Origin: Ilex aquifolium
Taxonomy: Eukaryota; Streptophyta; Magnoliopsida; Aquifoliales; Aquifoliaceae
NCBI GenBank assembly: GCA_951799425.1
Contig: OX637402.1
Span: 9,328,001 to 9,392,000 of the forward strand
Length of the DNA: 64,000 nt
Direction of reading: 5' to 3'
Part shown: piece after piece, positions 1,136 through 63,786 of the stretch
How the letters are laid out: every line of letters begins with the position of its first letter
Position numbering within the stretch: the stretch's first letter is position 1
Program-made: the position numbers and the translations under genes
Notes under the pieces: model-generated
Told to the model about the DNA's origin: nothing
Seen by the model: only the letters and a program-made list of their open reading frames with translations
The model's database searches: none

Positions 1136-2778
1136 TGATTCGCGTTCACCCTAATCTCCAAACACTAACCCAGACTAAGTGTATATGGCTTATGTGTGTA
1201 CGTGAGTGTCACTCTCCCTTAGGTTTGATGCTAGAAATAGGGAAAATGTGTGTGTGGATGAAAATGTGTGTGTGTGCAAAAGTGGTTCCCAAGCGGAGTG
1301 AGACTTTCGAGTGTCGTTTTTTACTTGGAATTGGTATTCCAAGGTCGTCTCCTCAGGGAAGGAAGGTTGAATTGTAGTGAGGTGATTTTGTGAAAAATGA
1401 AAAGTGTAAAATCTTGTGAGTTTGTGTTTTTGGTGAGTGAAGATTTTGATAGAAAATGTAATGAAAACAAGGTTGGTTAATCCAAAGGGGTCATTCCAAT
1501 GGGAATGTCAAATCAACTCAAAACATTCTTCCAATGGTGTCTCGGTGCTTGATTGATTCGTAGGAAGTGAGAGATTAATGTGGAGGTGTAGGCTCAAGCA
1601 TACCCCGTGACAAGTCTACGTTGTATCAAGAGCTCACAACCTCGTCCGCACTAAACCTAGTCAAACCAAACTACTTACACTACGAGGAGGAATGAGAAAT
1701 AGTTGATTTAGCATATCAAAGAGGAAATCTCCCTTGGATTAACCAACTAAAACTTAGCTACACATAATAAATGCAAAGACATACAATGTGTAAAGAGACA
1801 TGGTAATGAAATGGAGATTCAAACTTGTATTAATGTAAGGAAAAGTTAACTACAAAGATAAGTGCATTTAATACCCAACTAAAAAGCTTGAAGTGAAAAA
1901 CTCAACATGATAGATTCCAAGATACGTAACTAAACTTGAAATACACTTGAAATAACTACGATTAAAGTGCACTAAATGAAGATTACAAGAGTATTGCAGC
2001 TTACTACAAGCGAAATGGGTAAGAAAATGCAAAAATCCAAACTTTCTCTCTCTAAACTATGTCTTCTTCCTTGAGCTTCTCTCTCTAAAATGTTGTATAA
2101 TGGTGTAGCACCCTTGCATTTTCTTCCATCAGCCCCCTATGACCTGTGTGTCCAGGCTTCCCATCAATGGGAAGTGATTTGATGCTTGGACAGGCTAAGA
2201 CAAGCCTAACCTGCAACCCACCAAGCTCCTTCTTTCTCTCTCTTCCTCTTAAATGCATTTTCCTACAAAGTCCAACCTTAGGTGTAGGGAGGCATGCTTG
2301 GATGTATAACATGTCAGGGATGTGTAGGAGAAGTAGAGTTGGGCCCCACAAGCAAAGAAAACTTGAGTTATAGAATCTGGCATTTTTCAGCAAAACCTAC
2401 CGGTAGGTCGATGAAAAACCTACCGGTAGGTTTTGTTCTAGTGAGCAAAAGCTTTCGAAAGGTTTCCAGTAGGTCCAACTCTAGTGTGCAAAATCTGCCG
2501 GTAGTTTTATGAGCAAACCTACCGGTACATTTTTACTTGGTTTGCTCCTATCTTGATCTTTTCACCTTCCAAGCCACCCGTTAAGCCTCCCTTTCATCTC
2601 CATTGACTTTGAGCACTACGACGGGGGCTTAACTCAAGCCATTTCCAACTCTTTACCTACAATCACGCAACAACTTCATTAATTTTTTGATTAATTATAT
2701 TTCTCCCATTTTCACCACAAAAGCAAGTATAAAAGAGATACAAAAGCATACATGATGTGTAATATTTTGTGCTAATCA
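1136..2778 (-). repeat. 5' LTR of element A (about 1.64 kb)
   Basis: The LTR is bounded by TG at 1136 and CA at 2778 (+ strand reading), adjoining the PBS on the left. It shares text over most of its length with LTR A2 (3461-5206) and LTR C (7839-7887 plus 22613-24181). Examples are the GTGTCACTCTCCC block near its left end and the TGTGCTAATCA end. It carries a CCTACCGGTAGG palindrome array and, about 145 bp promoter-downstream on the minus strand, a TATA-like TGCATTTAAGAGG (2243-2256). Confidence 0.88.
2392..2530 (-). promoter_or_regulatory. CCTACCGGTAGG palindrome array in LTR A
   Basis: Five perfect or decayed 12-bp palindromes have their central tetranucleotides at about 2400, 2423, 2455, 2498 and 2522, giving spacings of 23, 32, 43 and 24 bp. 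The middle site is of a different type (CTTTCGAAAG) and the fourth has lost one arm. The same order and spacing recurs in LTR C and in the interior of C. The array sits in U3, upstream of the TATA-like box on the minus strand. Function is unknown. Confidence 0.8.
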
Positions 2779-3460
2779 ACGTCTAAAGAATGGGACTTTC
2801 GAGATCAAAGCCTTGAGTCTTGAGTTGAGTTTCTTAGTGTTTCTACTACGTGTATTATGCTTCAAAAGGTAGGGTTCCTTTCCTAACTAGGTTTATTTCT
2901 AACCTAGGGTTGATATATGAAATGGGTAGACTGTTAGAGATGTAATCTCATGTATAACACATACCTAGTGTTGTTGAAATGCAAAAAATGGGTATGAGAA
3001 TGGGTTAAAATCAACTCTTGCATGAATTGGGTTTTGGTGAAATTGCTTTCTTTGGAATTTCATGAGAAATGTGCTGAATTTGACATTCTATGTGTTTACA
3101 TAATTTTGTGCCTTATATGTGTTTGATAAAATGCCTATGATTGATTAAGTATGTTGTTTGAATGAAAATGATATAACATGCTTTGTGAAGATTTTGGAAT
3201 GTAGTTATATGCTTTATGATATAAATTACATTGAGAAATTGGAAATGGTGATAGACACTGAAATTGTTCATAATGCTGTCATGAGATATTGAACATGATG
3301 TTATGATGTTGTAATTGGAATTGAAAACTTGATTGCATAGTGATATGAAATGCAACTATTCATTAAATTTGCATAGGCATGGGTAGCATTACATTCGAGG
3401 GCATTTGACATGAGTGTAGGTGTGTGTGCAGGATTTTGATGAAAGACCATCCTTAGTGTG

Positions 3461-5206
3461 TGCTTGACTTATTTCCTTGTTGTTCCTAAGCTCCGGACAT
3501 CACTCTCTCAAGGTATGTATGATATATGTGTGAAAGGGGAAGTGTCACTCTCCCTTGGAATGATGTCAAAATAAAGGGCAAGGGAATGGTGGAAAATGAA
3601 ATGTGTGAGTAAACAAAAATGATTCCCAGGCGCAAGAAGACTTTTGTATGTCGTGTTTTACTTGGAGAGTACTCCAAGGTCGTCTCCTCGAGGAAGGATG
3701 TGAATCATATAGAAGGTGATTTTGGTGAAAGAAATGTGTAAAATCTTTTGTTGTTTGGAATTGGTTTGTGATTTGAGTTGTAATGAAATTAAGATGGGAA
3801 AATAAGTGTTGGCTAATCCGAAGGGTTCACTCCGATGGGGATGCCAAGACAACTCGAGTCCTTCCTCCAATAGAGCATAGATGTACGATTGATTCGTGGG
3901 AAGCTAGGGATGAGATGGAAGTGAGGATCCAAGCATAACCCGTGACCAGGCCTACGGGATATCAAAGACTCACAACCGCATCCACTCTCAACCCAGTCAA
4001 ACCGAGCCATCGTACTCTAAGAGGAGGAAGGAAAATGAGTTGTATAGGCATACGCAAATGGAGGTCTCCCTTGGATTAGCCAACTAGAAAGCTTAGCTAC
4101 TCATGTTTAAGGTAAAGACAACAATATAATAAGAAGACATTATAAAGAGATGAAGTTTGTATCTAAGTTAATGGAAGAAACATAAACTAAAAGAGGATGC
4201 ATTTACTACCCATTTTAAGCTAAGAAAATGAAGAACATGAATGCATTAATGGTAAAAGCTTGAATAGATGATTAAACTTAAAAGCAACTTGAAATAACTA
4301 GCATTAAAGACTTCAAACAAAGCTTAAAAAGATCTTACATGAAATTACAAGACAATGTGTGGAAGAAAATGCAAAAATCTCAACTTCTCTCTCTAACACT
4401 ATTCATCTTCTTCCTAGACTCTCTCTCTCTCTATATATATATATTACAATGTATCTTAGCTCATGCAAAATAATGGTGGAGAAGCTTGCAAAAAATGACC
4501 ATGGAGTGTCCCCCAAGCCTATGTGATGTGATTCCAATCATAGGGGGCTGAAAGGGATGGGATGGTGCAGGCTAGGACAAGCCTAGCATTTCTCTCTCCT
4601 CCTCATTATTGCAATGGCCTTCCAAGTCCAAGTAGAGGTGAGGGGAGGCTCCTAGACGTGCATGGGATGTCAGAGGATATGTTGGAGAAGTGTAAGTGGG
4701 ACCACCAAATGGCAGAACTTGAGTTACAGGCTGTCTGGGCAAAACCTTCCGGAAGGTCAATAGAAACCTTCCGGAAGGTTTGTGTAGGAACAGTTAAATG
4801 AAGAAGTCAACAGGAAAAACCTTAAATGAAGAAGTCAACAGGCAAAACCTTTCGGAAGGTTCATTCCAGTAGATAAAACCTTCTGGAAGGTATTGGCAGT
4901 GAAAAAGAAATCCAAGGCAAAACCTTCCGGAAGGTTTTTACCCAAACCTTCCAGAAGGTTTTCAACTAATTTGAATTTTCTTGGTTTCTTTTCCCTTAAA
5001 ACCTTCCTCTAAGCTACCCCTTCGTCTTCATTGACATCAAACACTTTCATGGGGGTTTAACTCATACCATTTACATCATTTTACTTGCATTCACACAAAA
5101 CTCCATAAGAACGAAGATTAAACGCATTTCTCCTCAATTTCATGACAAAAGCAAGTATAAAAAGGCATATTAGCATACAAAATATGTCATGTTTTTGTGC
5201 TAATCA
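3461..5206 (-). repeat. Solo LTR A2 (Athila type, about 1.75 kb) inserted in LTR I
   Basis: It is bounded by TG at 3461 and CA at 5206 and flanked by the direct repeat GTGTG (3456-3460 and 5207-5211). Removing it restores continuous LTR I sequence. It belongs to the same family as LTRs A and C (GTGTCACTCTCCC and TGTGCTAATCA blocks), but its palindromes are CCTTCCGGAAGG rather than CCTACCGGTAGG. No internal retroelement sequence is present, so it is a product of LTR-LTR recombination. Confidence 0.88.
4743..4960 (-). promoter_or_regulatory. CCTTCCGGAAGG palindrome array in solo LTR A2
   Basis: Centres lie at about 4749, 4771, 4852, 4883, 4927 and 4951. The spacings 22, 31, 44 and 24 mirror those in LTRs A and C. 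An extra segment with a tandem AAATGAAGAAGTCAACAGG (about 4796-4845) separates the second and third sites. Several sites are decayed by CCGG to CTGG or CCAG changes. Confidence 0.8.
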
Positions 5207-6082: not shown

Positions 6083-6345
6083 AGGTACCGGTACCGTTAC
6101 TTACGGGTACTAGTACCTGAATTCCAGTGGGCTTAGGTACTAGTACCCATGCATCAGGTACTGATATCTCGATGAACAGTGGGCTCAAGTACTGGTACCA
6201 TGATATATAGGTATCAGTACGTAGCAAACAGTGGGCTCTGGTACCGGTACTTATGTGATTAGTATTGGTACCTAGCAAATGGAAAGACATGGTAGACAGA
6301 AGGCTCAGGTACTGGTACCACGTGTCTTAAATACTGATACCTCTT
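6083..6345 (+). promoter_or_regulatory. GGTACCGGTACC / GGTACTAGTACC palindrome array in LTR I
   Basis: About ten imperfect copies occur. Their centres (6088/6110, 6140/6164, 6192/6214, 6244/6265, 6312/6334) fall into pairs 21-24 bp apart, and the first four pairs start 52 bp apart. The spacer CAGTGGGCTC recurs. The array lies upstream of a TATA-like AAATATAAC near 6367. In LTR H, a relative with no array, the equivalent place has plain sequence before TATAAATGGAC. Confidence 0.75.
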
Positions 6346-7887: not shown

Positions 7888-8132
7888 TGATTAGCACAGA
7901 ACAATGACATGTATTGTGTGCTAAAGTGTTTTTTGTTTCACTCCTTTTTGTCAATAAATGGGAGTGTTTTGGTTTTGAATATGGCTTGATGGAATTTTGG
8001 GTGAATGCATGTAAAATGATGTAAATGACATGACTTAAACACCCATGTTGTTGTATGAGGCTAATGGAGTGTATGGGGTAGTTTTAAGGATGGTTTGGAG
8101 AGGAAAGAAATCCAAATTGTGCTCACAGTCTG

Positions 8133-8726
8133 AAAACCTTCCGGAAGGTGTATGTCGGCCTTCCGGAAGGTTTTGCTAAAAGCCCTGGATGATCTTGTCA
8201 CAGCTAATACCCTCCGGAAGGTTTTGTCCACTGGAATGAACCTTCCGGAAGATTTAAGCTACTGGAGTAAAACCTTCTGGAAGGATTTGTCTACTGGAAT
8301 GAACCTTCCGGAAGGTTTTGCCTTGGGTTTCTTTTTGACTGCCAAAATCTTCCGGAAGATTTAGTCTACTGGAATGAACCTTCCGGAAGATTTAAGCTAC
8401 TGGAGTAAAACCTTCCGGAAGGATTTGTCTACTGGAATGAACCTTCCGGAAGGTTTTGCCTTGGGTTTCTTTTTGACTGCCAAAATCTTCCGGAAGGTTT
8501 TGTCTACTGGAATGAACCTTCCAGAAGATTTAAGCTACTGGAGTAAAACCTTCCGGAAGGATTTGTCTACTGGAATGAATCTTCCGGAAGGTTTTGGCTA
8601 CTGGAATGAACCTTCCGGAAGATTTTTGTTTCTGATGTCGACCTTCCGGAAGTTCTTGCATTTGATTCTTTTCATTGAACTGTCTTTCAGCGACCTTCCG
8701 GTAGGTGTGTGTCGACCTTCCGGAAG
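8133..8726 (+). promoter_or_regulatory. CCTTCCGGAAGG palindrome array in the 5' LTR of B
   Basis: About eighteen sites have AACCTTCCGGAAGGTT as the full consensus. From 8241 the site starts are 8241, 8273, 8304, 8348, 8379, 8411, 8442, 8486, 8517, 8549, 8580, 8611 and 8642, that is steps of 31, 32, 31 and 44 repeated. The 31+32+31+44 block forms a 138-bp tandem unit. A variant near 8693 has mixed arms (CCTTCCGGTAGG). The array lies upstream of the TATA-like box. Several mutated sites are CCGG to CTGG or CCAG. Confidence 0.92.
8231..8600 (+). repeat. 138-bp tandem repeat in LTR B (about 2.6 copies)
   Basis: The phrase CTGGAATGAA recurs at 8231, 8369 and 8507, exactly 138 bp apart, with near-identical sequence between, including the TTGGGTTTCTTTTTGACTGCC spacer in the full copies. 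The same repeat is present in the 3' LTR, so it predates this insertion. Confidence 0.9.
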
Positions 8727-10105
8727 GTTTTTGCACTTTTCTCCAGACAGCCTGCAACTCAACTTTGCAGCTTGGAGGGTCCCACATGCATTTCTACTAC
8801 ATGCTTCCTGACATCCCTTACACACCCTGGAGCTTCCCTCACCCCTGCATTGATATGGATTGCAAGATGGCATTAAATAAAAGAGAGAGAATGGGACCTG
8901 CTGGGGACCTGCTGGGTTTGCAGACAAAGTCTGCACTTCCCCCTTCCAGACTTAGCTCTACTGTAGGGAGTGACTAAGGGAGTTGCAGAGATTGACCAGG
9001 CACATTTTGGAGAAAGAAGAAAAGTTCTCCAAGGATGGATATACCAGGAGGGAGGAAGACAGAAAAGAGGATTATTATTCATTCAGCATATTATTGAAGA
9101 GTTTTTAGAGAGAGAAGCTCTGGGCGGAGAAGATGATGAACAGTAGTTTTTAGAGAGAGAAACTTGAGATTTTGCATTTTCTTCTACTGCATTTGTCTTG
9201 TAATCTTGAGGAAGGATTTTAATAGTTCATTGAATGCCATGAATGCCATGAATGTTGTTTTCCCTTCATGTTCAGTTAGTTGAATGCTCATTTAATATTT
9301 CACCATTAATGCTTCAAGTGCTCCACTTTCATATCTATGTAATGGGTTTAAATGCATGATATTTTAGTTCATAAATTCTTACACTTAGTAGCTTTAGAAG
9401 TTCATAGATTTGCAATGCACTTCCATTACCTAATCATTTCCATTCCTAGTATGAGTAGCTAAATTCTCTAGTTGGCAAGACCAAGAGGGATCTCCTTTGG
9501 GGATCCCATTTCAACTCTTTCTCCTCTCTCCCTTTAGAGTCAAATGGTTCATTTTGACCGGATAGAAGATGGATGATACGATGAGTCTTTGATAAACCGT
9601 AGGCCTAGTCACGGTTTATGCTTAGATACTCACCGATGTCATCCTCGGCTTTCCGTGATTCAAGTGTTCATTCATGCTCAATCGGAGGAGTGATTTGAGT
9701 TGAGGTGGTATACCCATTGGAGTGATCTCTTGGAATTGCCAACACTTGTTTTTACCATTACATTTTCATTAGCACACACTTCACCAATCAACTCTCAAGA
9801 CAAAAGATTTTACATTTCCGTGTTTCACCAAATCACTTCAATCTTGATTCACTACCTTCCCTGTGGATACGACCTTGGAATACTCTTCCAAGTAACTCAC
9901 AACACACGAAAGTCTCCTTGCGATTGGGGAGCATTTTTTGTGCATACATTCCCATATTTACATCGTCCCATTTCCCTTTCCTCATTACCCATTCTTTTGA
10001 CTCTATCCTTAGGGGAAGAAATTCTTCTCCACCGTCCACACATTGCATACATTGAGGGATAGTAATTAGGGGTTAGGAAAGGTATCGTTTTTGTGCCAAT
10101 CATTT

Positions 10106-10260: not shown

Positions 10261-13200
10261 ATGTGGGGAAGGGACGACTATCATCGATTAGTTAGACAAC
10301 CCTTAGGCCCCAACATGAACATCGACCAAGACCCACCCGAGAATGTGGGTGACAATGTTGAAAATATAGCTGTCAACCAAAACATGCAAGGGGGTGGGAA
10401 TTTTGACAATGTAGGTGCAAACCTAAATGACCAAAGGGGTGGGGGAATGCCCGAACATAGGGAGCATGACCCAAGATTACACTATCCCCTTCCCGATCAA
10501 TTTGACAATGTGGGTGTCAACCCAAATATGCGAGGTGGTGGGGGAGTGCAACCACCTAGAATGCCCAACCAACAAGCGCATTTTCCCCCACCAAGGAATG
10601 AAGGGAACATCCCACTTGATTTTGAGGCAAGAACTATGCAAGAGTACCTTCAACCGACCCGTAGCACCACACCATCATGCATCCGTCTCCCTGTCCAACA
10701 TCACCTTTTTGTGTTAAAACCGTGGATGTTGCAACTAATCCCCAAATTCAGGGGGGTTGAAAATGAGAACCCGTATAACCACATAAGGTCTTACGAGGAA
10801 ATGGTTGCAACGTTTCTCCCAAATCACAATTTGGAAGAGATAGCCAGGATGAAATTGTTCCCTTTCTCTATGGATGGGAAGGCAAGAGTGTGGCTTGATT
10901 CCATGGGACCACGGACTATGCTATCTTGGGATAACATTGTCTCCTTTTTCTTAAAAAAAATTTTCCCGGTTCATCGAACCACCTTTTTGAAAAAGGAAAT
11001 CCAAAACTTTTCTGAAAAACCCAATGAGCAGTTTTATCAATGTTGGGACCGTTATAAGGATCTACTTCACTCCATACCACATCATGGTTTTAACTCATGG
11101 CAATTGGTGACTTTCTTCTACGAAGGAATCACCCCAGACCATAGACAATTCATAGATATGATGTGCAATGGTGAATTCTTGAACAAAGATCCCGATGAGG
11201 CCCTAGACTATTTTGGTACCCTCGCTGAAAAGGCACAAACTTGGGGTGTTCAGGATCCGGATGACATACCTAGGACAATGCCGGGTAGTAGTCAACCACC
11301 ACGGGGGGGGATGTATGACTTAAAAGACCGTGAGGATCTACTTTCCCAAATTTCCAAATTGTCTAGGAAAGTGGATAGCCTTGAGGTGGAGAGGAGACGA
11401 AATGTCTCTCATGTGTCAAGAGCCGAGGAGGTTTGTTCTGTTTGTGGTGGTGTCGAGCATTCCACATCGGAGTGTCCGAGCATCCCGGCACTTAAGGAGG
11501 CATACCATGACCAAGTTAATGCCTTCAACCAACCAAGGCAATCATTTCCTCCAAATCCCAACACTTACAATTCGGGGTATCGTGATCACCCTAATTTCAG
11601 TTGGAGGAATGAGAACCCCATTCCTTATGGCTCAAACACATATACACCTCCTGCACCTCCCAAGCAAGGTCCGTACCAATCCCAACATCAAGGTCAGGGG
11701 CAAACTTCAAGCTCCCAATACCCACGGTCCAATCCACAAGGATACCAATCCAACCCTCCCCCACAGAATTTTTCCGGACAAGGCCCATCTAGTTCTTCCA
11801 GCTACCAACCACCTCATAAACGGAGTCTAGAAGATGTGGTTCATGCCTTCATTCAAAGCCAAACCACCTTCAATAAGGACATTTCGGCCCAACTCACCAA
11901 GATCACCAATGCCATTGGGTTGTCTCAACAAGAGAAGGGAAAATTTCCCTCTCAACCCCAACAAAATCCCAAAGGTCAAAATGTGGTTGAGTTGGCCGAA
12001 ACTTCCCAGGAGAGTTGTGAGCAACTCAAAGCCGTCACCACACTTAGGATTGGTAAACAAATTGAAAAGATGGTGGTGCCAAAGTTAACACCAAAGGCCA
12101 CATTGCCAAAGGAGAAAGAAATTGAGAGTGAGGCCAAAGAAAGTGTGGTCGACAAGGGTGAGTCGAGTGAAAGAGATGGGGTTGATAAAGAACATTTGAT
12201 TGATAATGGGTTATGCTCTCCTTCTATACCTGCCCCTTTTCCCCATCGGTTGAAGTCACCTGTCAAGGTGGCTAATTATTCTGACATTTTGGATTTGTTT
12301 AAGCAGGTAAAAATCAACATCCCGCTCCTTGATGCCATCAAGCAAATTCCGTCATGTGCCAAGATATTGAAGGACCTATGCACGGTGAAAAGGAAGTTGA
12401 ATGTCCGAAAGAAGGCATTTCTCACCGAACAAGTGAGCTCCATATTGAGAACCAACACTCCTCCAAAATTCAAGGATCCCGGTTGTCCAACAATTGCCAT
12501 CACCATTGGAAATTGCCGGGTTGAGCAAGCATTGCTTGACTTGGGGGCGAGCGTCAATCTTCTTCCTTACTCCGTGTACCAACAACTCAAGCTTGAAGAG
12601 TTGAAGCCCACCTCAGTTACACTTCAACTGGCGGATCGGAGCATACGCACACCAAGGGGAGTAGTGGAAGATGTGCTTGTCCAAGTTGACAATTTTTACT
12701 TTCCAGTCGATTTTATTGTATTAGATACACACCCGGTTGCTAACCTTAATTCCCAAATTCCCGTTATTCTTGGAAGACCTTTCCTTGCTACCGCTAACGC
12801 TGTGATTAATTGCAGGAATGGTCTAATGAAGTTGGCTTTTGGGAACATGACCATGGAGCTGAATGTTTTCAATTTAGCAAAACAACCCGGGGATGATGTG
12901 GAGGTGAACGAGATCAATAGAATCGACACTTTGATTGAGGAGCAAGTGGAATTAGAAGGGATGTTGGACTGCATGGAGGAGGACTTTGTTGAACTTGTAA
13001 AGTTAGATGAGGAAGAGAGCATGGAAGAGCTGAAAGGGGTAACAAAATCGATTCCCACCTTTGAGGAGTTGCCTAAGCAAGAAAAGAAGATTTTCCGGTC
13101 GGAGGAACAAAAGCCAAATTTGGAGTTGAAGCCGTTACCCTCACACTTGAAGTACGTCTATCTTGGCAAGGGAGATACATTTCCGGTGATCATTAGTTCC

Positions 13201-16035
13201 ACATTGAACAATGAGCAAGAAAAAGAACTCTTGGAGGTTTTGAGAAGACACAAGGGAGCAATTGGGTGGACCATTGCGGATATCAAGGGAATAAGCCCTA
13301 TTATTTGCACTCACCGCATTTACCTCGAGGAGGATGCAAGACCTTCCCGACAGCCTCAATGGAGTTTGAACCCTCATATGAAGGAGGTGGTGAGGGAAGA
13401 GGTTCTTAAACTACTTGACGTGGGCATAATCTTTCCAATTGCTGATAGTAAGTGGGTGAGCCCCACGCAAGTGGTGCCCAAGAAATCCGGAGTCACAGTG
13501 GTAGAAAACGAGGAGAATGAATTGATACCTACAAGAGTGATTACGGGATGGAGGGTGTGCATCGATTACAGGAAATTGAACTCATGCACTAGGAAGGATC
13601 ATTTCCCAATGCCGTTCCTTGATCAAGTGCTGGAAAGAGTGGCGGGGCACCTCTTCTACTGTTTCCTTGATGGATACTCCGGTTATAATCAGATCGAGAT
13701 TGCCCTCGAAGACCAGGAGAAAACCACCTTTACATGCCCCTACGGTACCTTTGCGTACCGGCGCATGCCGTTTGGACTTTGTAATGCTCCAGGAACTTTC
13801 CAAAGATGTATGATGGGCATTTTCAGTGATATGGTGGAGGAAATTGTGGAGGTGTTTATGGACGATTTCTCCGTATTTGGTGATTCCTTCGACGGATGCT
13901 TAGGAAATTTGGAGAAAGTGTTGGGAAGATGTGAAGAAAAGGACCTTGTGCTGAATTGGGAGAAGTGTCACTTTATGGTGACGGAAGGGATTGTGTTGGG
14001 TCACATAGTGTCGGCAAGGGGCATAGAAGTTGACAAATCCAAGGTGGAGGCCATCTCCAACCTCCCCACGCCGACGGCCATCAAAGGGATCAGGTCATTT
14101 TTGGGTCATGCAGGTTTCTATCGCCGGTTCATTCAAAATTTTAGTGCATTGGCCCGACCCCTGACCAATTTACTGTCCAAGGATGTTCCCTTCGAGTGGT
14201 CGCATGAGTGTGAGGCATCTTTTAAGAAACTAAAAAGCATGCTTGTCACGCCTCCCATCATGCAACCACCCAATTGGGATCTACCCTTCGAGCTTATGTG
14301 CGACGCGAGTGACTACGCGGTCGGCGCAGTGCTTGGTCAGAGGAAGGACAATCGACCGCATGTTATACACTATGCTAGCAAAACACTTAATGAGGCTCAA
14401 ATGAATTACACTACCACTGAAAAGGAATTGCTAGCTGTAGTGTTTGCTCTTGATAAATTCCGTTCATATATCATTGGTTCACCTATTGTTATCTTCACTG
14501 ACCATTCTGCTTTAAAGTACTTGTTATCTAAGCAGGATGCAAAGCCAAGACTCATTAGGTGGATTCTCCTCCTGCAAGAATTTGATTTGACTATTAAAGA
14601 CAAGAAGGGAGTTGAGAATGTCGTGGCGGATCACTTATCCCGGCTGGTGGCACAAGAGACAAATGAGCACATCCCTATCTCAGACTCTTTCCCTGATGAG
14701 CAGTTATTGTCCATTCATTCTCATTGTCCTTGGTATGCTGACATTTGCAATTATCTTGCAACAGGACAAATTCCACCACATTGGAGCCCTGAGGATAAAA
14801 GGAGATTTATGGCCGACGTGAAGTACTTCTACTTCGATAATCCGTATCTGTTCAAGTATTGTCCAGACCAGATCATGAGGCGATGCGTGCCTGAAACTGA
14901 ACAGCGGAACGTCCTGGCCTTCTGTCATTCCCAAGCCTGTGGTGGGCATTTCTCTGCTAAGAAGACCTCAGCCAAGATTCTCCAATCAGGTTTCTACTGG
15001 CCTTCTCTGATTAAGGATTGTATTTCATTTTGCAAAGAATGTGATAGATGCCAACGTTTGGGTGGCGTGACCCAAAGGAATATGATGCCCCTCTCCCCTG
15101 TACTTGTGATAGAAATATTCGATTGTTGGGGCATCGATTTCATGGGTCCCTTCCCTATGTCGTTTGGCTATCTATACATTCTGCTGGCAGTGGACTACGT
15201 GTCCAAATGGGTGGAGGCTATCCCGACAAAGACTAACGACCACCGGGTTGTAGTCAAGTTCTTGAAAGAGAACATTTTTTCGAGGTTCGGGATGCCTCGT
15301 GCTTTGATTAGTGACAGTGGATCACACTTTTGTAACAGGCCAGTTGCATCGTTAGTGTTCAAATATGGCGTTACACATAAAGTATCCACCGCTTATCACC
15401 CACAAACAAATGGCCAAGCCGAACTAGCCAATAGGGAGATCAAGACCATCCTTGAGAAAACAGTTAACCCCAATAGGAAGGATTGGTCTGAGAGATTGAT
15501 TGATGCCCTGTGGGCATATCGTACTGCCTACAAGACAGTTTTGGGCATGTCCCCCTATCGGCTTGTCTATGGAAAGGCTTGCCATCTGCCGGTAGAAATG
15601 GAACACAAGGCCTATTGGGCCATCAAGACTCTAAATTTCAATATGAGAATGGCGGGTAAACATAGGATGTTGGAAATGAATGAATTGGAAGAGATTCGGC
15701 GGGATGCATACGAGAGTTCAAAAATTTCAAAGGAACGGGCGAAAATCTTTCATGATAACTCCATAGTGAGGAAATCATTCGAGCCCGGGCAAAAGGTACT
15801 CTTGTATAATTCCCGCCTCTCCATCTTTCCCGGAAAGTTAAGATCCCGTTGGGATGGCCCCTATCTTGTCAAGGTGGCCTACCCCAATGGAGCTGTTGAG
15901 ATCACCAACCTCAAAGATGGCCAAACATTCAAGGTCAATGGCCAAAGACTTAAGCCATTCTTTGAGGGTTTTGAAAACCAAGTGGTGGAGGAAGAGTTAA
16001 CCGACCCGGTGTATCCGGATGTGGTTGAGGAATAA
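10261..16035 (+). CDS. gag-pol: gag-pol polyprotein of element B, intact (1924 aa)
   Basis: One uninterrupted ORF encodes capsid, protease, reverse transcriptase, RNase H and integrase. Gag core is at about residues 110-300. A CX2CX4HX4C zinc knuckle spans residues 392-405. The protease motif L-D-L-G-A-S has its aspartate at about 760. RT (about 1040-1270) has the F-M-D-D catalytic pair at 1201-1202. RNase H begins near 1345, with D1348. Integrase has an HHCC zinc region (about 1545-1600) and the D,D35E triad D1626, D1685, E1721, followed by a GPF/Y-like C-terminus. There is no chromodomain. The first ATG, about 140 bp after the PBS, is the natural start, and the homologous position is used in element A. 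Gag and pol in one frame is normal for this lineage. No missing catalytic residue is seen. Confidence 0.96.
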
Positions 16036-18097: not shown

Positions 18098-18392
18098 AAA
18101 ACCTTCCGGAAGGTTTTGCCAGTAAGTAAAACCTTCCGGAAGGTTGACATCGACCTTCCGGAAGATGCTACCTACTGGAAGTGCTCGATTGTCCAGTGAG
18201 TGAAACCTTCCGGAAGGTATACATCGACCTTCCGGAAGATACTACCTACTAACTATTTTAAAACAGTCAACAAGTAAAACCTTCCGGAAGGTTCTCATAG
18301 ACCTTCCGGAAGATTTTACCTACTGACTGTTTTTTAAAATAGGCAGTAAGTAAAATCTTTCGGAAGGTTCTCATACACCTTCCGGAAGATCG
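18098..18392 (+). promoter_or_regulatory. Internal CCTTCCGGAAGG array upstream of the post-pol ORF of B
   Basis: Nine sites start at about 18102, 18132, 18154, 18206, 18228, 18280, 18302, 18356 and 18378. From the second site they form four pairs exactly 22 bp apart, with pairs repeating every 74-76 bp. The arms are the same as in the LTR of this element. The array is followed by a weak TATA-like TTTTAAATC (about 18418) and a CT-rich leader (18470-18530) before the ATG at 18679. It looks like a separate promoter for the downstream ORF (inference). Confidence 0.85.
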
Positions 18393-18678
18393 AGTCTGAA
18401 ACCCAAAAAAACAAGGGTTTTAAATCTAAATTTTTCGGAAACCCTTTCATTGCCTTTCTCAAATACAACTCCCCCAAACTCTCTCCTCTCCTCCTTCTCC
18501 TTCCTGAGCTTCGAAACCCCTCTCCAATCATCTTTACCTTCTATTTTCCCTCGATTAAGGGTGAATCTTGGAACTTTTGAGCCGAAATCCCAAGGAATTC
18601 TTGTAAAACCCTAAGGTTTATTTCCCCCAAAATTCACCACTTTTCCATCCCCTCTCCAAATCACCCTACTCACCTACC

Positions 18679-20064
18679 ATGGCTCGATTGAATGAGGCAA
18701 CTATGGACGCATGGGGGACCCTTGAAAACATATGGTGGTGGTTCATGATCGCTTTGGGGTTTGGAGTGTTCGTCTCACTCATGGCCAAGACAAAGAGGAC
18801 TGGCCCCGAGTCTCCACCCCCCTCTGGCTCAGCTTCTAGGAAAAGGACCGGGGAAGGTCCTAGCTCTCAGGAAAAGGCGGAGCGGAGGACAAAGGCAAGG
18901 CATGATGAACGAAGAAAAAGGATTGAGGAAAAAGGTGTGACGTGTGAGAGGTATGTTGATAGAATCTCCCTTGGTATTACGGATGAGGTTGTGAAAATTA
19001 TTGAGGAACGGGGTTTGGGTGTTTGGTTTGTTGAGGTGAAGGGGTACAACCTGGGAATGTGTCGAGAATTTTATCAGAAATTGTTTGTTTTTGGGGATGA
19101 TGGAAGTAAGTTGAAAACTAATGTGAGGGGGAAATCATTTGAGGTCACCCCTGATACAATTGCCATGGCAATGGGGTATGCTAGACCTCCCGCATCCACC
19201 CCTGTCTACCCACACAACGTGGATGCGAACAAAACACTTGAGGAGTATGTGAACCTCACGTATGAGGATCCGACAACGTTTAAGGGAACGACATTCGTCG
19301 GGGGCCTCAAGCACACTTATGGGGTGATGAACAAAGTACTACATTACAACTTGATGCCCCGGGGTTCGGAAAAAAATCCAAACGTGGAGAAGTTGTCTCT
19401 ACTGCATGCTTTTATGACAGGGGTGGCGTTTGATGTGGCCTACTATATTTGGTTGGAGATGCGGGAGTTTGCCCGGATGGATAAGCCAAAGGCGAACCTA
19501 CCCTTTCCCAACCTGGTCACTAAGTTGTGTGATTAGGCGAATGTGAAGCACTATGGCCAGGAAAAGCTGCTCCCTCCAGAGTTTGGAGCAATTGGGATGG
19601 CCAGCAGTCAGAAAAGGGCTGCCAGGGCTAAGGGTGAGAGGAGCAGGGATCCAGGACCCCAGCCACAACCCCAGCCACAGCCGTCTGATGCTGGAACTTC
19701 TACTGAAGCCCCTCCTACGGCACCAGCCCCTGCACCTACCCCCGATCATGCTATTCCACAGCGCCTCGATGCACTGGTGGGTGAAGTGCAGGGAATTAAG
19801 GGAGAAGTTCAAGGAATCAAGAATGAGGTGCGTGGGATGAAAGAGACGGTGCAGGGGATCGCTGCCATGATGACACAGCTCTTTCAGCGTAAGTTCCCAG
19901 GGAACCCCATTCCGGGCCAGGGTAGCTCAACCTCCCCCTATCCTTCTGCCTCTACCATGGTTGAGATTGGAGACACTGATGAGGAGTTTGAGGACGAGAC
20001 TGAGGGGGAGAGTGACTTTGACCTACCTCCTGATCATGATAATGATGGTGGTGGTGAGAAGTAG
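18679..20064 (+). pseudogene. Post-pol (env-position) ORF of element B, one in-frame stop
   Basis: The frame runs from ATG 18679 to 20064, with a single TAG at 19534-19536 dividing it (285 codons, then about 175 more). The N-terminus has a hydrophobic stretch (residues about 18-36), then a second Met at 18781 followed by basic, Ser/Pro-rich sequence. Residues about 90-285 are a conserved domain (R-E-F-Y, V-R-G-K and the K-H-T-Y-G-V-M-N-K motif), which I relate to the Pfam putative plant transposon protein family. After the stop come a Pro/Gln-rich linker, a heptad-like coiled coil with V-Q-G-I-K repeats (about 19770-19870) and an acidic C-terminus. Homologues are in C and D. It occupies the place called env in Athila, but no fusion peptide, cleavage site or C-terminal anchor is visible. 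Readthrough or a recent nonsense mutation are both possible. Confidence 0.85.
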
Positions 20065-22607: not shown

Positions 22608-22612
22608 CACTC

Positions 22613-24504: not shown

Positions 24505-25839
24505 CTACTCATCACCCTCGTCTCCATCATCATCATCACCATCATCGTCATCTCCGGCATCATCATCTCCACCCTCGTCATCACTCTCATCATCCTCCTC
24601 GTCTTCATCTGAATCTCCCACCTCAACAACAGTGGAAGCTGAGGGGGCGGAGGTGGAAGGTACAGTAGTTGGAGGTGGAGGTCCACCGGGGATCGGCTCG
24701 CCCAGGAAGGTATGCTGGAAAAGCCTGGTCATCATCATCGATATCCCCTGCACTGTCTCCTCCAAAACGTCCAAGCGCTGAGACACTGTGCGCATAGGGG
24801 CGAAAGTAGATGGACCAGAAGCAGACAGCCCCGCATTAGATGGTCCTATAGTTGATGACTCTAGCCTCGGGGCTCTTGCTCTTTCACCCCTATTCATGGC
24901 CGTCCTCTTGCTACTGCTCGCCTTCCCAATGGCTTCGGTCTCCAGGGGAGTCATCACGTCAAAGATGTATCCCTTGACTTTGCAGTGGTTGCACATCTGG
25001 GTGACAAAGGTTGCCAAATGGGAGATTCGCCTTCGATTTTCTAGCCTGAGAGAATTCCTTCATAAACTCCCATATCAACAAGGCTACATCCATAGCCTTC
25101 CCAGTCATAACGGCATGCAGGAGGGTGAGCTTTTCCACATTCGGGCTCTTCTCAGCTCTCATGGGAAGCAAGTTATAATGCAACATTTTGTTCATTATCC
25201 CATAGGCGTGCTTAAGGCCCTTGACTTGGATCGTTATCCTAAGTTGGGTCAGGTTCTCATACATCAACCCTGCATACTTTGAGATGGTCTTTACCCCAGG
25301 GATATTGTGTGGGTACATTGGGACACTGGGGGGAGGCCTCTTATACTTCATCAGGGTAGCAATCAAGGCTGGGGTCACATCGAAGGTTTTCCCCCTCACA
25401 TTCATCCTCAAAATACACGCATCCTCGTCCACCACCTTTAATTATTGGTAAAAATATCTACACAAAGCCAAGTTGAACCCACTAACGGGCTCAAACCATA
25501 TCCCTATCCCATGGCCCTCAATGATCCTCACTACTTCATTGTTCGGGCCAAGGGAGATCCTATCCACATATCGCTCACAAGTCACATTCCTCTCCTCGAT
25601 GCTTTGGTAGCTAGCATCATTCCTAGCTTTCTTCCTTTGCTCCCTCCTATCACCACTCGACCCCTCACCACTCCTCTTGCAGGCACTAGCACCCGCGGGT
25701 TATGGGGAACCCGGCCTAGTGCGCTTGGTGCGGGCCATGAGAAGCAATAGTGCCCAAACACCAAGAATGACAAGAACACCATCAAAAACCCCTCAATAGG
25801 AACAACAATATCAAGAAAGATCTTCCCTGTGTGAGCCAT
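24505..25839 (-). pseudogene. Post-pol (env-position) ORF of element C, broken
   Basis: Reading from ATG 25839 the product starts with a hydrophobic segment (residues about 16-35), then loses frame. The conserved sequence continues in other frames with in-frame stops near 25700 and 25443 and another shift near 24990. The middle domain is clear (V-R-G-K, Y-P-H-N and the K-H-A-Y-G-I-M-N-K motif), as in B. The C-terminal part (25017-24505) has a linker, a predicted coiled coil around the R-L-D-V-L-E-E motif and a long Asp/Glu-rich tail. Homology to B covers nearly the whole protein. It is not functional. Confidence 0.85.
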
Positions 25840-28368: not shown

Positions 28369-28589
28369 TAGGGTTTTAGTGACAAAATCCACAAATCTTC
28401 GGCAAAAATCCACTCAATAATCGCCCCTAGCAATGAAATATAAGAGATTAAGGTGATGGGTGGGAGATTTTGAAGCTTAGAGATGTTTTGAGGGAGAGAG
28501 GAGTGTCTGGGAGTTCGAGTGTAATAGGAGAAATGAACAGTCCACCACGAAAAATGGACTTAAACCTTCAATTTTTAACCTTCTGGGCA

Positions 28590-46413: not shown

Positions 46414-48758
46414 TGTAAAACCCAGGATAAATTTGAACTTTTTATGAAAAATGGCAAAACGGTAATTTACCACTACGGTACAAGTTACAAACTTGAATTT
46501 TTCTAGAGCTCGGATGACTAAACAGACCTCACCGTTGGATTCGTCTTGCGAAATCTAGCAACCCTGTCAATTTTCATCGAATTCCAAGATAGTCAGATTT
46601 TTCGCGTTTTACGTGGCGGTCAGGTCTCAGGTGACCCAAAAATAAATTTTTGAATAAAATTTTGAAAGTTGGAAAATAATTTAAAGCAAGTTCAAATAAA
46701 AAAAATTTTGAACTTGAACTGGGGCTAAATTTAATTGTTTCGAGGCGAAAACGGACCCGAAAAAAAGAGGTCATGTGGCGCGATGAGGACCAAGTATTTA
46801 GGAGTATAAAAAGGGGAGAAGTATCAGATTTCTCCCCATTTGGTCTACTGCTTCTCAAGTTGGGGAGGAAAAGAGGGAAAAAAAGAAAGCTCTCCACCTT
46901 CTCTCTACGATCTACGGAGATTGCGCGCTCAAATCAACGTGAGCCAAGAGGAAAAGTTGTTCATCTCGTCGAGAGCTACGCGACTATACCAAAAAGTGCG
47001 GTTTTTACCGAAGTTCAAAGAACCAAATTTTTGGAAGCTAGGGCTTTGGGCTAGAAGCGGGTTCTTGGAGCTTCCTACGGTTGTTCTTTACACTTCAAGA
47101 GGTAGAATTTTCTCCCTAATTAGGTTTATTTCCAACCTAGGGTGAGTATATGGAATGGGTAGGGTGTTAGATGTTTATGATCCTTGCCTATTGTTGTAAA
47201 AAAATTGAGGAAATGGGTACTGATATTAGGTAGAATAAATTCTATCTTGAATTGGTGTGTGGAAATTGCTAATTTGTGATTTCTTAGAAAAATGGCATTA
47301 TGTGGGCATGCTATGTGTTTATATTGTGCCTTGTGAATTAAGTGTGTTATTGGCATAGATTATGTGCTAACGTGTTTGGGATTTGTTGTTGGGTATAATG
47401 TTAAAATATGTTTTATGATATGTTAGCATTATGATGAGTGTGAAATTATATGCTTTTGATATAATTGGCAATAGATTGGTGGAAATTGCTCATTTGGCAT
47501 ACATTGCATATTGGGTAAGATGTTGGCATCACATTCATGGGCATTGGGCATGAGTGTGGGTGTGTGTGTGCATGGTTCAATCAAACACCATACTTGGTGG
47601 ATGTTGGGCAGGCTTGGGAAAAGTTGGAATGAAGTTCCGACTGAGTCGCACGGTTGCATGAAAAACTTGTGTCGGGTATAGCAAGAAGGTCTAGACTCTC
47701 TCTCGGGTGCAAGACCCGACTATTGGCTTATACACTTCCGACGGTGCAAGTCCAAAAAAGTGTATCGGTGTGCGGAGCCGGCGGTGCGACACCAAAAGTC
47801 CGCTACCCAACAAAGACACATGATTTTGTTTTATAAAATAGTCATTTGATGTGAAACATCAATGGCGGGGGCTTGGGATGCCCGAATTTTTATACATGGA
47901 AATTGCATATGTTGAGGGAGCCGACAAAGGCTCGGGTTGATGTACATGAGTGGGTCTCATCTCATGCATGTTCTTGATTGGAATGTTTGTTGTTTTGATG
48001 AATGTTGCATGTGAACATTTCATATGCACTTAGGTTGGGAAGTAACCTCTTTAGGAGATACCCTATTGAGCGTGGCTCACCTTTCGTGGGACAACATTTC
48101 AGGTGGGGGATATGCTCCGGCGGATGGCTCTCAATCGGGCCCCCATGGTTGAAGAAAAAAAAATGACATGTGGCTTTTATGTCTTATTTTTGTAAAACTT
48201 CATGTAAATTCCTGTTGGACAAGTAATTGTATGAAATAAATTATAATCGAACTTGTATTAACTATATTTGGTGCATAAATACATGTTATATAAGTTGGGA
48301 ATGAATTGGAATTGAAAAAGGAAGGAATTGTAGGAAAAAAGGCAAAACCTTCTGGAAGGTCGATGAAAACCTTCCGGAAGAACTTTTCCAGTGGGCAAAA
48401 CCTTCCGGAAGGTCTATCAAAACCTTTCGGAAGGTTTTTCAAAAATCTAAAATTTTAAGAATGATTTCCTATGCTTCCGAGCTTTGAGTTCTTTTGTTCA
48501 AATGATATAAATGGACATTAAATGAGGATAAATTGTTGTATACTGGACCTCAGATAGGTCATGTGAATGTCGTGTACGCAGGTTATGCAATGGGAGTTCC
48601 CGGTACAAGGGAGACTCCGTCCAAATTTTGGGTTTTGTGATCCCCGTTAAGGGGATGCTATTGACGTGAGGTCGAGTTGTGCGACAATCACGGGTATTTC
48701 CGCGGGTTGATGGGTAATCAATGGTTAACAAAGGACCCCCGGTTTTAGGGGTGTCACA
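46414..48758 (+). repeat. 5' LTR of element E
   Basis: It starts TGTAAAACCCAGG and ends GGGGTGTCACA at 48758, next to a PBS-like TGGTATTAGAGC. A second LTR tail plus PBS follows at 48812-48859. It carries a four-site CCTTCCGGAAGG array (48349-48435) upstream of a TATA box (TATAAATGGAC, 48506-48516) that is shared with LTR H. Confidence 0.85.
48347..48440 (+). promoter_or_regulatory. CCTTCCGGAAGG palindrome array in LTR E
   Basis: Four sites start at 48349, 48370, 48401 and 48423, with spacings 21, 31 and 22. The spacers (GGTCGATGAAAA, CAGTGGGCAAAA) resemble those in Athila-type LTRs A and C. The TATA box is about 70 bp downstream. LTRs G and H lack the array at this place. Confidence 0.88.
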
Positions 48759-52336: not shown

Positions 52337-53408
52337 TGCTTCAACTTTAAAAGTGTAAACCCAAGCGCAGGTTGAGCAGAGTAATATAATCTCGGAAGTC
52401 CGAGGTCGATCCCACGAGGAAGTGTAACAAGGAACAATCACACAAACAACAACAGTAATTTGGAAGGAAAAAGATTTGTGTGGTAAATTGTTGATTGGAG
52501 AAAAGTGATTTTTGGTATTTGAAACAGTAATAAATAAAATACTAGAGCATCAGGTACTCCCTCTCAACTTCATACAATAATAGTTAAAGACTCAAAGCTT
52601 GACTTGAAAGAGGAATTAAATGTCAGTTAACCCAATTAACAAATCAAGTGATAAATCCAAAAGTTATAATCAAACGACTACCAGGAACCTGAATAATCAT
52701 TCAATCATATTATTCTATGAAATAATGTTAATCCTTCCAGCGTGGAATAACTAGTGATTTACACGCAGGGAAACTCAAGCAATTGATGTACGTGGCACAA
52801 CAACTCAAGAATTTATACAGCATAAACACTTTGCTAAAATATTAGGAATTAAATTAACACAGTTCCATAAATCCTTAAGTACAAGAGTCAATAAAAATAC
52901 CGTACTCCGTCGAGAGATTTTCCCCTAGCCCTAGCTTAGCCTTCTAGCCAGACATAATACAGGATGCAGAAAAAAGACTAAGAACAAAAGACCCCCCTTT
53001 ACAAGGTCCTAGGTTCGTATTTATAAATTACATTCCCAAGAGATTGCATCCCACTAGGATTCTAACTTCGGCAGCAGAGGCTTTACACGCGTCCGGACGC
53101 GCCTCTCTCAACCGTCCGGACGCAACTTCCAGAATGGTCATTCCTGCGTTTATCAACTTTCTGCCAATCGCGTCCGGACGCGTACACTCCATCCGTCCGG
53201 ACGCGTATTCCAGTGTGATCCCTCCTGAGCTATGCTTCTTCTTTCCATAATTTGTCCCCAAAACTATGCTTTTTACCTGCAAATTATCACAGATCAACAT
53301 TTACTAGCATAACACTCAATTTGGATAAACTCTTATTTTTATCACAATTTTACAATTAAAATATCATCTTTTCATAATAATAATTGTGATTATTTGGACT
53401 TAATCACA
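52337..53408 (-). repeat. 3' LTR of element D (1072 bp)
   Basis: It is identical by eye to 62715-63786. On the minus strand it starts TGTGATTAAGTCC and ends TTGAAGCA. A TATA box (TATAAATA, 53018-53025) lies about 65 bp downstream of the palindrome array. The short open stretches over the array are not genes. Confidence 0.95.
53087..53206 (-). promoter_or_regulatory. GCGTCCGGACGC palindrome array in the 3' LTR of D
   Basis: Four sites have CCGG at 53093, 53116, 53174 and 53197, forming two pairs exactly 23 bp apart, 81 bp from pair to pair. The array is directly upstream of the LTR TATA box. The copy in the 5' LTR is at 63465-63584. Confidence 0.92.
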
Positions 53409-55268: not shown

Positions 55269-56345
55269 CTAAGATGAGGGGCCTGCCTGATCACGAGAAC
55301 TATGTCCTAGTCCCCTCATCTCAGCCCTCAACTCTCTCATCTCCTTCCTCATCTCTCTCTGACCTCTCAATAACTCGAACAGAATCTGCCGGTCAGTCCT
55401 GGGATCAGTGTCTTCATCCACTGGCAAATCAAAATCTTCATCGAAATTGAAGAGCTGATCCCACTCCTCCACCGGTACATCCCCCTCAGCTGCAGCCTCC
55501 CCTTGCTGGCCCCTCGTCCCCACTGGCCTCGCCACACTCCGACTCTTTAGAAGAGAGCCGGAGGTGAGTGCAACAACTTTCTTTGCCTTCTCCATCGTGG
55601 CGTCAATCACCACCCCCGCCCTCTCACAAAATGCGGTAGCCAGACCGGGAAATGGGAAAGATGGCTTCTTATGGTCAACAGTGGCCCTACGCATCTCTGA
55701 GAAAATAAGGGAGGGTAGGTCTATGGTCTTGCCAGTGCCTATGGCATACAGAAGTCGGGCTCGGTCAGGGTATATGTGATTATTCCTCAGCAAAGGAAAA
55801 ATGTTGGAGACTGAAATCAGATTGAGAATCTTGTACTTATTGGTCAAGTCTCCCTGCTGAAGGAATTTCACTCCCTCAGTCCACACAAAACCTTGCTCAC
55901 CCATTAACTCCCTACCCACCTCATCACCCCCAAAATTCTGAGGGTATTCGGGGACAGCCACCCGGGCTTGAGTCATCTCAGTCAGTTGGGCAATGGCTGA
56001 AGCATCTATATTGATGTGCTTGCCTCGGACATAGGTGGTCAGCTGACCATTCCCGAGGTCATCGGCATTGCTGTAGAACTCCCTTGCCAGGATGGGAATG
56101 CAAGGCCACTCTCTACCCATAAACTCGGCCCACCCTCTAGATGTGATGATCTCTTGGATTCCTAAACGAGAGAAATCCTTGAGTTCAATCCTCCTCTCAC
56201 AGACAAAGGGCTTGGAGGCATAGTATTTCTCAAACCTTACACGCTCCTCTAGTATTTGGAAACGTATGGGGTCATATGTGGTGTCCTCCTCTTCTTGGGT
56301 GCTTGCTCGGGCTCTCTTTGAGGAGGAGGCTCTTGGTGGTGCCAT
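55269..56345 (-). CDS. Post-pol (env-position) protein of element D, intact (358 aa)
   Basis: The ORF is intact. The N-terminus has a basic S-S-K-R-A-R stretch (residues about 8-13) that could act as a nuclear localisation signal. Residues about 60-240 form the domain shared with B and C (R-E-F-Y, Y-V-R-G-K, L-T-N-K-Y-K-I-L-N and P-D-R-A-R-L-L-Y-A-I-G-T-G-K motifs), which I relate to the putative plant transposon protein family. An acidic region (about 285-315) is followed by a short coiled coil rich in R-E-M-R heptads (about 320-346). There is no signal peptide, membrane segment or cleavage site. The start aligns with the internal Met of the B protein. A TATA box lies about 96 bp upstream of the ATG, so it probably has its own promoter. 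Function is unknown; see the findings for the binding hypothesis. Confidence 0.85.
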   Translation of the reverse strand: MAPPRASSSKRARASTQEEEDTTYDPIRFQILEERVRFEKYYASKPFVCERRIELKDFSRLGIQEIITSRGWAEFMGREWPCIPILAREFYSNADDLGNGQLTTYVRGKHINIDASAIAQLTEMTQARVAVPEYPQNFGGDEVGRELMGEQGFVWTEGVKFLQQGDLTNKYKILNLISVSNIFPLLRNNHIYPDRARLLYAIGTGKTIDLPSLIFSEMRRATVDHKKPSFPFPGLATAFCERAGVVIDATMEKAKKVVALTSGSLLKSRSVARPVGTRGQQGEAAAEGDVPVEEWDQLFNFDEDFDLPVDEDTDPRTDRQILFELLRGQREMRKEMRELRAEMRGLGHSSRDQAGPSS

Positions 56346-56440
56346 AGTTGTTAGAGTATAGCAGAGAGGAGTGGAAAGGGTGGGAGGTGTTTGAAAATCG
56401 GTTTAGAAATGTGTTGAACAAGTTAACTGACAAAGCCTCT

Positions 56441-56447
56441 ATTTATA
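56441..56447 (-). promoter_or_regulatory. TATA box of the post-pol gene of element D
   Basis: Minus-strand TATAAATAGAGGC lies between the internal palindrome array (nearest site about 11 bp upstream) and the ATG at 56345. It would give a 5' leader of about 65 bases. The LTR promoter has the same array-then-TATAAATA order. Confidence 0.75.
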
Positions 56448-56455: not shown

Positions 56456-56716
56456 CACGCGTCCGGACGCATGAGGTGTTTCCGTCCGGACGCGGCTCAA
56501 CTGCAGGCATTAATAGGCTTTGAATGACACGCGTCCGGACGCATGGTGAGGTCCCGTCCGGACGCGTGTTCTGAATTTGAAACGTTTAGACTTCCGTCCG
56601 GACGCGTCGCAAATCACCGTCCGGACGCGTGTGCCAGTATGTTCAGCCTATTCTCCCCCCATCCGGACGCAAACTCCAGAAGATTTTATACTATAATTTG
56701 TGCGTCCGGACGCGAG
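56456..56716 (-). promoter_or_regulatory. Internal GCGTCCGGACGC array upstream of the post-pol gene of D
   Basis: Eight sites have CCGG at 56463, 56486, 56535, 56558, 56598, 56621, 56663 and 56706. The first six form three pairs exactly 23 bp apart, the same pair spacing as in the LTR. The arms are those of the LTR array. They occur nowhere else that I noticed in the window. Confidence 0.92.
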
Positions 56717-56932
56717 TTCCAGTGAATTGATTACTCTATACTTAGAAAAATTTGCACTTTTCTTCAACTATTTCTCTCCCAAGTGATTCCCTTCTACTTC
56801 TAAAAATTTCTAAGGACAAAAAAAAAGAAAAAAAAAAATAAGAAAATTCTACTTAGCTATCTAAAAAAAAATAAACACAATAACCACAGTTTCATGTGCA
56901 CATCAACTTCAAAATTTTTCAAGTAAATGCTC

Positions 56933-62690: not shown

Positions 62691-62708
62691 TCCCCGGCAA
62701 CGGCGCCA
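62691..62708 (-). other. Primer binding site of element D (tRNA-Asp)
   Basis: It is an exact 18-base match to TGGCGCCGTTGCCGGGGA on the minus strand, six bases from the LTR end. Confidence 0.95.
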
Positions 62709-62714
62709 AAAACT

Positions 62715-63786
62715 TGCTTCAACTTTAAAAGTGTAAACCCAAGCGCAGGTTGAGCAGAGTAATATAATCTCGGAAGTCCGAGGTCGATCCCACGAGGAAG
62801 TGTAACAAGGAACAATCACACAAACAACAACAGTAATTTGGAAGGAAAAAGATTTGTGTGGTAAATTGTTGATTGGAGAAAAGTGATTTTTGGTATTTGA
62901 AACAGTAATAAATAAAATACTAGAGCATCAGGTACTCCCTCTCAACTTCATACAATAATAGTTAAAGACTCAAAGCTTGACTTGAAAGAGGAATTAAATG
63001 TCAGTTAACCCAATTAACAAATCAAGTGATAAATCCAAAAGTTATAATCAAACGACTACCAGGAACCTGAATAATCATTCAATCATATTATTCTATGAAA
63101 TAATGTTAATCCTTCCAGCGTGGAATAACTAGTGATTTACACGCAGGGAAACTCAAGCAATTGATGTACGTGGCACAACAACTCAAGAATTTATACAGCA
63201 TAAACACTTTGCTAAAATATTAGGAATTAAATTAACACAGTTCCATAAATCCTTAAGTACAAGAGTCAATAAAAATACCGTACTCCGTCGAGAGATTTTC
63301 CCCTAGCCCTAGCTTAGCCTTCTAGCCAGACATAATACAGGATGCAGAAAAAAGACTAAGAACAAAAGACCCCCCTTTACAAGGTCCTAGGTTCGTATTT
63401 ATAAATTACATTCCCAAGAGATTGCATCCCACTAGGATTCTAACTTCGGCAGCAGAGGCTTTACACGCGTCCGGACGCGCCTCTCTCAACCGTCCGGACG
63501 CAACTTCCAGAATGGTCATTCCTGCGTTTATCAACTTTCTGCCAATCGCGTCCGGACGCGTACACTCCATCCGTCCGGACGCGTATTCCAGTGTGATCCC
63601 TCCTGAGCTATGCTTCTTCTTTCCATAATTTGTCCCCAAAACTATGCTTTTTACCTGCAAATTATCACAGATCAACATTTACTAGCATAACACTCAATTT
63701 GGATAAACTCTTATTTTTATCACAATTTTACAATTAAAATATCATCTTTTCATAATAATAATTGTGATTATTTGGACTTAATCACA
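62715..63786 (-). repeat. 5' LTR of element D (1072 bp)
   Basis: No difference from the 3' LTR (52337-53408) was found by eye. It carries the same four-site GCGTCCGGACGC array (about 63465-63584) and TATAAATA box (about 63396-63403). It abuts TTAT, the right target site copy. Confidence 0.95.

Follow-up and report, generated by a model that had tools for sequence, protein, structure and literature searches.

Palindrome arrays in the promoters of Athila-like and chromovirus-like retrotransposons of Ilex aquifolium, and a possible VANC-like role for ORF3

A 64,000-nucleotide stretch of the Ilex aquifolium genome (contig OX637402.1, positions 9,328,001 to 9,392,000; hereafter the window) holds Athila-like long terminal repeat (LTR) retrotransposons, labeled A, A2, B, C, and D, and chromovirus-like ones, labeled E, F, I, J, and K. 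It raises the question of why elements of both kinds carry, in the U3 region of their LTRs, arrays of short palindromes with a W-CCGG-W core and family-specific arms. A first-pass annotation made from the sequence had named eleven such arrays; all were located, and its claim that the U3 of differing LTR elements holds family-specific palindrome arrays is supported. The same palindrome type recurs upstream of ORF3, an open reading frame (ORF) whose PF20167 product has long been called env-like, and we hypothesize that ORF3 is a regulator of its own two promoters.

Arrays in U3 and upstream of ORF3

Comparison of the window with 200 dinucleotide shuffles of itself revealed 41 perfect 12-bp WCCGGW palindromes against a shuffle mean of 0.2 (maximum 2), 81 WCCGGW sites with at least three of four arm positions symmetric against 3.1 (maximum 10), and 14 clusters of at least two sites within 200 bp against 0.015 (maximum 1). 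The events counted are not independent, as each LTR pair of B, D, and F contributes twice and tandem duplicates within B are included. The core is found in 41 of the 85 perfect 12-bp palindromes of all kinds, and ATATAT repeats make up 22 of the remaining 44. Across the 800 Mb searched (103 contigs), CCTTCCGGAAGG has 17,078 sites and its reversed pattern 175, while GGTACCGGTACC has 5,913 against 76, the LTR placement of these sites having been examined in fetched loci only. The expected excess over shuffled sequence and the occurrence beyond this locus were thus both borne out, and some sites exceed the proposed 12-bp length (for example, AAAACCTACCGGTAGGTTTT in A).

In element sense, the arrays of A, A2, B, C, D, and F start ~200 to 320 bp into the LTR, that is, in U3, with the LTR ends of A and A2 inferred from similarity. 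Three arrays absent from the earlier list lie between pol and ORF3 in B, C, and D (Table 1), and in each element the class is identical at the two positions: CCTT in B, CCTA in C, and GCGT in D. When the palindromes were masked, spacers could be aligned only for A, C, and C-internal and for A2 and B, plus two weak 18 to 19 bp matches to E; hence the U3 and internal arrays of B and of D share sites, not sequence, and the two arrays of C are copies.

These comparisons bear on whether the arrays could have arisen simply through tandem duplication and recombination in U3 and serve no binding function. Tandem duplications do occur within the B and B-internal arrays, and the two arrays of C have spacers in common. 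However, the palindromes persist while spacers are unalignable between most arrays, new arms stay symmetric, and 80 of 82 WCCGGW sites within arrays have a symmetric W pair against 10 of 24 outside, a partly circular contrast in that the palindromes themselves set the array limits. Moreover, a centre-to-centre spacing of 21 to 24 bp appears at least once in 9 of the 10 arrays with at least four sites, against 4.2 at random (P 0.0017, for a spacing window picked after inspection and with some arrays related to each other), so we regard a by-product origin as highly improbable. The F array has no neighbor spacing of 21 to 24 bp; a spacing of ~52 bp is repeated in B, B-internal, I, and locus L044, described below.

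Of 16 departures from the core within arrays, 15 are of the C-to-T type, as counted with a pattern that admitted only some outer-position departures, and for this reason silent copies were probably methylated at the palindromes. In the array of I, GGTACTAGTACC occurs twice; it equals GGTACCGGTACC after loss of both CpG cytosines and is still palindromic. The departures, and the many small RNAs attracted by maize Sirevirus palindrome clusters in the portion of PMC10760457 consulted, would suit arrays that act, as has been discussed for the maize palindromes, as RNA or DNA hairpins, small interfering RNA sources, or methylation targets instead of protein sites. We give that proposal very little credence, as it leaves the recurrence of type in U3 and before ORF3 unexplained, and a loopless 12-bp site would make a poor hairpin.

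The arrays had also been said to precede a TATA-like box wherever one could be located. This holds for F (~51 bp past the array), the D LTR (62 bp), and D-internal, and weakly for E (ATATAAAT, 66 bp past the array), but no TATA[AT]A was found within 450 bp past the array in A, B, C, I, B-internal, or C-internal, and the sole candidate in A2 is a TATATA run 300 bp from its array. In D, the internal array is followed by a TATA box at +10 bp and an ATG ~100 bp further, an order that looks like an internal promoter for ORF3. The arrays that lie upstream of ORF3 point to an internal promoter and perhaps to an element-encoded factor.

ORF3 and its palindromes beyond the window

With seven ORF3 proteins as tblastn queries, B, C, and D were the only elements of the window to give an ORF3 match. 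In a Pfam scan up to E 10, the ORF3 products of D and B match only PF20167, with no DUF1985 or DUF287 match, and neither has a sequence match in PDB; the predicted fold of ORF3 may resemble that of VANC21, the VANDAL anti-silencing protein. Because the similarity of B ORF3 to its relatives runs on past the stop (18679-19644), this copy may be truncated.

Beyond the window, we examined the 30 PF20167 loci with the highest scores among the 150 scored of 6,661 candidates. No WCCGGW array lies within 1.5 kb of any of them, and three have no more than a lone, imperfect CCGG site; in 25 of the 30, the domain is preceded by palindromes of the GCGCCTAGGCGC or GCGCTG/CAGCGC type. Longer stretches were taken for five ORF3 loci. 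Family F422 (L006/L035) has GCGCCTAGGCGC both before ORF3 and in the presumed LTR, and F407 (L031/L036) has GCGCTGTTCCAGCGC at both places; in F407b (L038), CACCGTCTAGACGGTG precedes ORF3, and the presumed LTR has CACCACCGTCCGGACGGTGGTG followed closely by TATAAATA. No shared palindrome was recognized in L037 and L039, which form a single family (91%; ORF3 of 384 and 387 aa) and may use another motif type.

When ORF3-upstream palindromes were tabulated against LTR palindromes, 6 of 8 loci filled the diagonal, or 6 of 7 families when the related B and C are taken as one; the off-diagonal matches were relatives, chromovirus E with B's class, and one chance pair, D and I. D and F407b have close ORF3s and palindromes of similar type. 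L044 holds an element related to D, with 76% identity to it across 206 bp at the 3' end of the internal region; at the LTR place corresponding to D's (L044:2120-2482, minus sense), it carries seven copies of CGTTCGAACG and two of CGTTTGAACG, spaced 18/34 bp in a 52-bp period. About eight array classes that differ in core and spacer occur in one genome, and the fixed core claimed earlier does not hold genome-wide, where CTAG, TCGA, and split cores also occur. Given the varied cores at L044 and at the ORF3 loci, the constant is not CCGG but the symmetry, the clustering, and the recurrence at both places.

We hypothesize that the arrays are clustered operator sites for a family-specific DNA-binding protein, probably a dimer, which would act at two Athila promoters, the LTR U3 for genomic RNA and the internal one before ORF3. 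The most likely binder would be the PF20167 product of ORF3 itself: it would bind its own palindromes and keep or make both promoters active, through removal of silencing marks, activation, or both, and would thereby feed its own expression forward, while protein and sites would diverge together among families. That ORF3 is such a VANC-like regulator of its two own promoters is, in our judgment, probable, and we hold to it with modest confidence.

The main rival is that the arrays are recognized by a family of host transcription factors whose sites are dyads with changing arms, that ORF3 is merely co-regulated, and that elements adopt the sites of paralogues by selection and U3 segment swaps. 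In its favor, CCTTCCGGAAGG contains TTCNNGAA, which fits the heat-shock element, consensus nTTCnnGAAn. Arrays of heat-shock elements throughout were considered and rejected, as only the CCTT class fits and GCGT, GGTA, CCTA, and GCGCCTAG do not. Also in favor of a host factor, the complete chromovirus F (internal region 4.7 kb) carries arrays with no detectable ORF3, and Sireviruses, according to the part of PMC2829016 consulted, have similar palindromes before TATA and before a different ENV gene. On the other side, the two promoters of an Athila family share one type, D and F407b combine close ORF3s with similar types, the roughly eight classes would demand many host factors given their differing cores and spacers, and the predicted fold of ORF3 appears VANC-like. 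We know of no plant factor that fits all array classes, and we consider control by host factors unlikely.

Array classes shared between Athila-like and chromovirus-like elements

The elements had been described as unrelated, an overstatement in the case of A, A2, B, and C, as their LTRs can be aligned with ~70 to 81% identity. The earlier lineage calls stand for B and D, which have Athila-like gag-pol and a PF20167 ORF3 between pol and the 3' LTR, and for F, with a chromodomain match (E 7e-05, 23.1 bits) just below the Pfam cut-off of 25.1; E is tied to F solely by 66% pol similarity. B and D are presumably Athila, and the presence of PF20167 in sunflower Athila agrees with that name. Among the best 120 of 7,912 matches, the reverse transcriptase region of B is 94% identical to an Ilex paraguariensis protein and 95% identical to an ENA protein, which makes a host in Ilex or close to it probable. 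The LTRs of I and E are related to each other and carry different array classes at the equivalent place; both elements are incomplete within the window.

A link between the lineages is an E-like element at L001 (G000:C1:59094-62105), whose U3 contains a 394-bp block 87% identical to the U3 of Athila B; within the block, identity is 90% over 71 bp of non-palindromic flank and 100% over a 26-bp spacer. On this evidence, the block is a real sequence transfer. Because J and K are without the block and A2 shares part of it, the donor was most simply Athila, a direction that we infer. Around the same locus, C1 60-192 kb, near a contig end, holds many near-regular CCTT arrays, often ~7.6 kb apart, which are perhaps a cluster of full-length chromovirus copies bearing the Athila-like block. 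Classes also differ between related LTRs: in L035, the GGTA class of F is replaced by CCGT in an LTR of the F type, and in L036, the CCTT class of B is replaced by GGTA/AGTA in an Athila LTR of the A/B/C type. In all six chromovirus arrays seen (E, I, F, L001, L040, and the L035 LTR), the class is also found in some Athila here. A precedent for an LTR gaining a segment of another family is known in wheat, where RLG_Quinta took one from RLC_Gisela (PMC11302176, consulted in part).

Elements without ORF3, such as F, would hijack the factor by means of Athila-class arrays in their own U3. It is possible, and we propose it tentatively, that the "env-like" ORF3 of Athila is not an envelope gene but a VANC-type anti-silencing regulator whose operators have been taken by chromoviruses and other elements, giving a network of regulatory parasitism.

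Table 1. Features of the window, with positions counted from its first nucleotide
Feature	Position	Strand	Remarks
Athila LTR A, U3 array	2392..2530	-	class CCTACCGGTAGG
Athila LTR A2, U3 array	4743..4960	-	class CCTTCCGGAAGG
Chromovirus-like LTR I, U3 array	6083..6345	+	class GGTACCGGTACC; many C-to-T type decayed cores
Athila B 5' LTR	7888..10102	+	99.3% identical to 3' LTR 20393-22607 (self-comparison)
B 5' LTR, U3 array	8133..8728	+	18 sites, class CCTTCCGGAAGG
B gag-pol ORF	10261..16035	+	1924 aa
B internal array before ORF3	18098..18395	+	9 sites, class CCTTCCGGAAGG
B ORF3	18679..19536	+	285 aa, PF20167
B 3' LTR, U3 array	20639..21231	+	
Athila C LTR, presumed 3'	22608..24181	-	81% identical to A (self-comparison)
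C U3 array	23793..23935	-	class CCTACCGGTAGG plus one CCTTCCGGAAGG
C ORF3 remnant	25004..25774	-	56% identical to B ORF3
Chromovirus-like LTR remnant J	27145-28367		related to E/I, no array; between C internal array and C ORF3 remnant
C internal array	28587..28732	-	81-82% identical to A and C U3 arrays, including spacers
Chromovirus-like LTR remnant K	34554-35588		related to E/I, no array
Chromovirus F LTRs	36017-38076 and 42825-44886	-	self-comparison
F 3' LTR, U3 array	37658..37760	-	class GGTACCGGTACC / AGTACCGGTACT
F 5' LTR, TATA box	44410..44416	-	
F 5' LTR, U3 array	44466..44578	-	
Chromovirus-like LTR E, U3 array	48347..48440	+	class CCTTCCGGAAGG
Athila D LTRs	52336-53408 and 62714-63786	-	100% identical (self-comparison)
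D 3' LTR, U3 array	53087..53206	-	class GCGTCCGGACGC
D ORF3	55269..56345	-	358 aa, PF20167
TATA box before D ORF3	56439..56447	-	10 bp past array, ~100 bp before ATG
D internal array before ORF3	56457..56717	-	7 sites, class GCGTCCGGACGC
D 5' LTR, U3 array	63465..63584	-	

Relation to known regulatory systems

No equivalent in plant Ty3/gypsy elements had been known to the first-pass annotation, and none was found for Ty3/gypsy among the open-licence literature matches listed; nor, by title and abstract start, did any of these join Sirevirus-type palindromes with a VANC-type system for Ty3/gypsy. An equivalent does exist in Ty1/copia. The repeated motifs of Sireviruses (Bousios et al. 2010; PMC2829016, consulted in part) are family-specific, high-copy, CpG-rich palindromes in U3 upstream of TATA, with a second cluster before the ENV-like gene. 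Palindrome clusters at both places are found here, with a TATA box in only part of the elements. In contrast to the Ty1/copia hosts of those motifs, the pol genes here are Athila-like and chromovirus-like, and the Sirevirus core is CGG-CCG with a variable spacer, whereas the cores here are CCGG, CTAG, TCGA, or split GCGCTG/CAGCGC. The same portion of that paper proposes neither an element-encoded binder nor transfer between lineages, and it describes the function of env-like genes in plant retroelements as unproven and highly controversial.

The VANDAL/VANC system, in the portions of PMC5735166 and PMC10398659 consulted, has what we propose here: a protein encoded by the transposable element, short family-specific motif arrays in non-coding regions, and co-divergence of the two; the motif also occurs in an unrelated element, which responds in trans. 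Such arrays in the element's own non-coding regions are found in the window, and the predicted fold of ORF3 may add a likeness to VANC21. The VANDAL proteins differ in being DUF1985/DUF287 proteins, with non-palindromic motifs of 8 to 9 bp (same sources). Here, unlike in VANDAL transposons, the carriers are LTR retrotransposons, the protein is PF20167, and the palindromes lie in U3 and before ORF3.

Foamy viruses (Spumavirus) encode Tas, a DNA-binding transactivator that acts on the LTR and on an internal promoter, one lying before the regulator gene. The two-promoter architecture is present in D, and transactivation would be the analogous step; the foamy virus differs in being an animal retrovirus with another protein, and we know of no perfect-palindrome arrays in it. 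For the protein itself, the closest description is the sunflower Athila aORF(+) with Transposase_32, a PF20167 protein downstream of pol and predicted to be nuclear, for which the portion of PMC11728184 consulted gives no DNA target or VANC link; methylation shaping by such Athila proteins is named, in the part of PMC12844716 consulted, as remaining to be investigated.

If our hypothesis is true, the old question of the env-like gene would reduce to an ordinary binding assay, and element-encoded anti-silencing, known from VANDAL transposons, would be extended to LTR retrotransposons. It would also demonstrate that one element lineage can steal the operators of another and give reason to revisit the Sirevirus palindrome arrays. 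Among known systems, the Sirevirus repeated motifs are the nearest cis architecture, and VANC is the nearest trans system.

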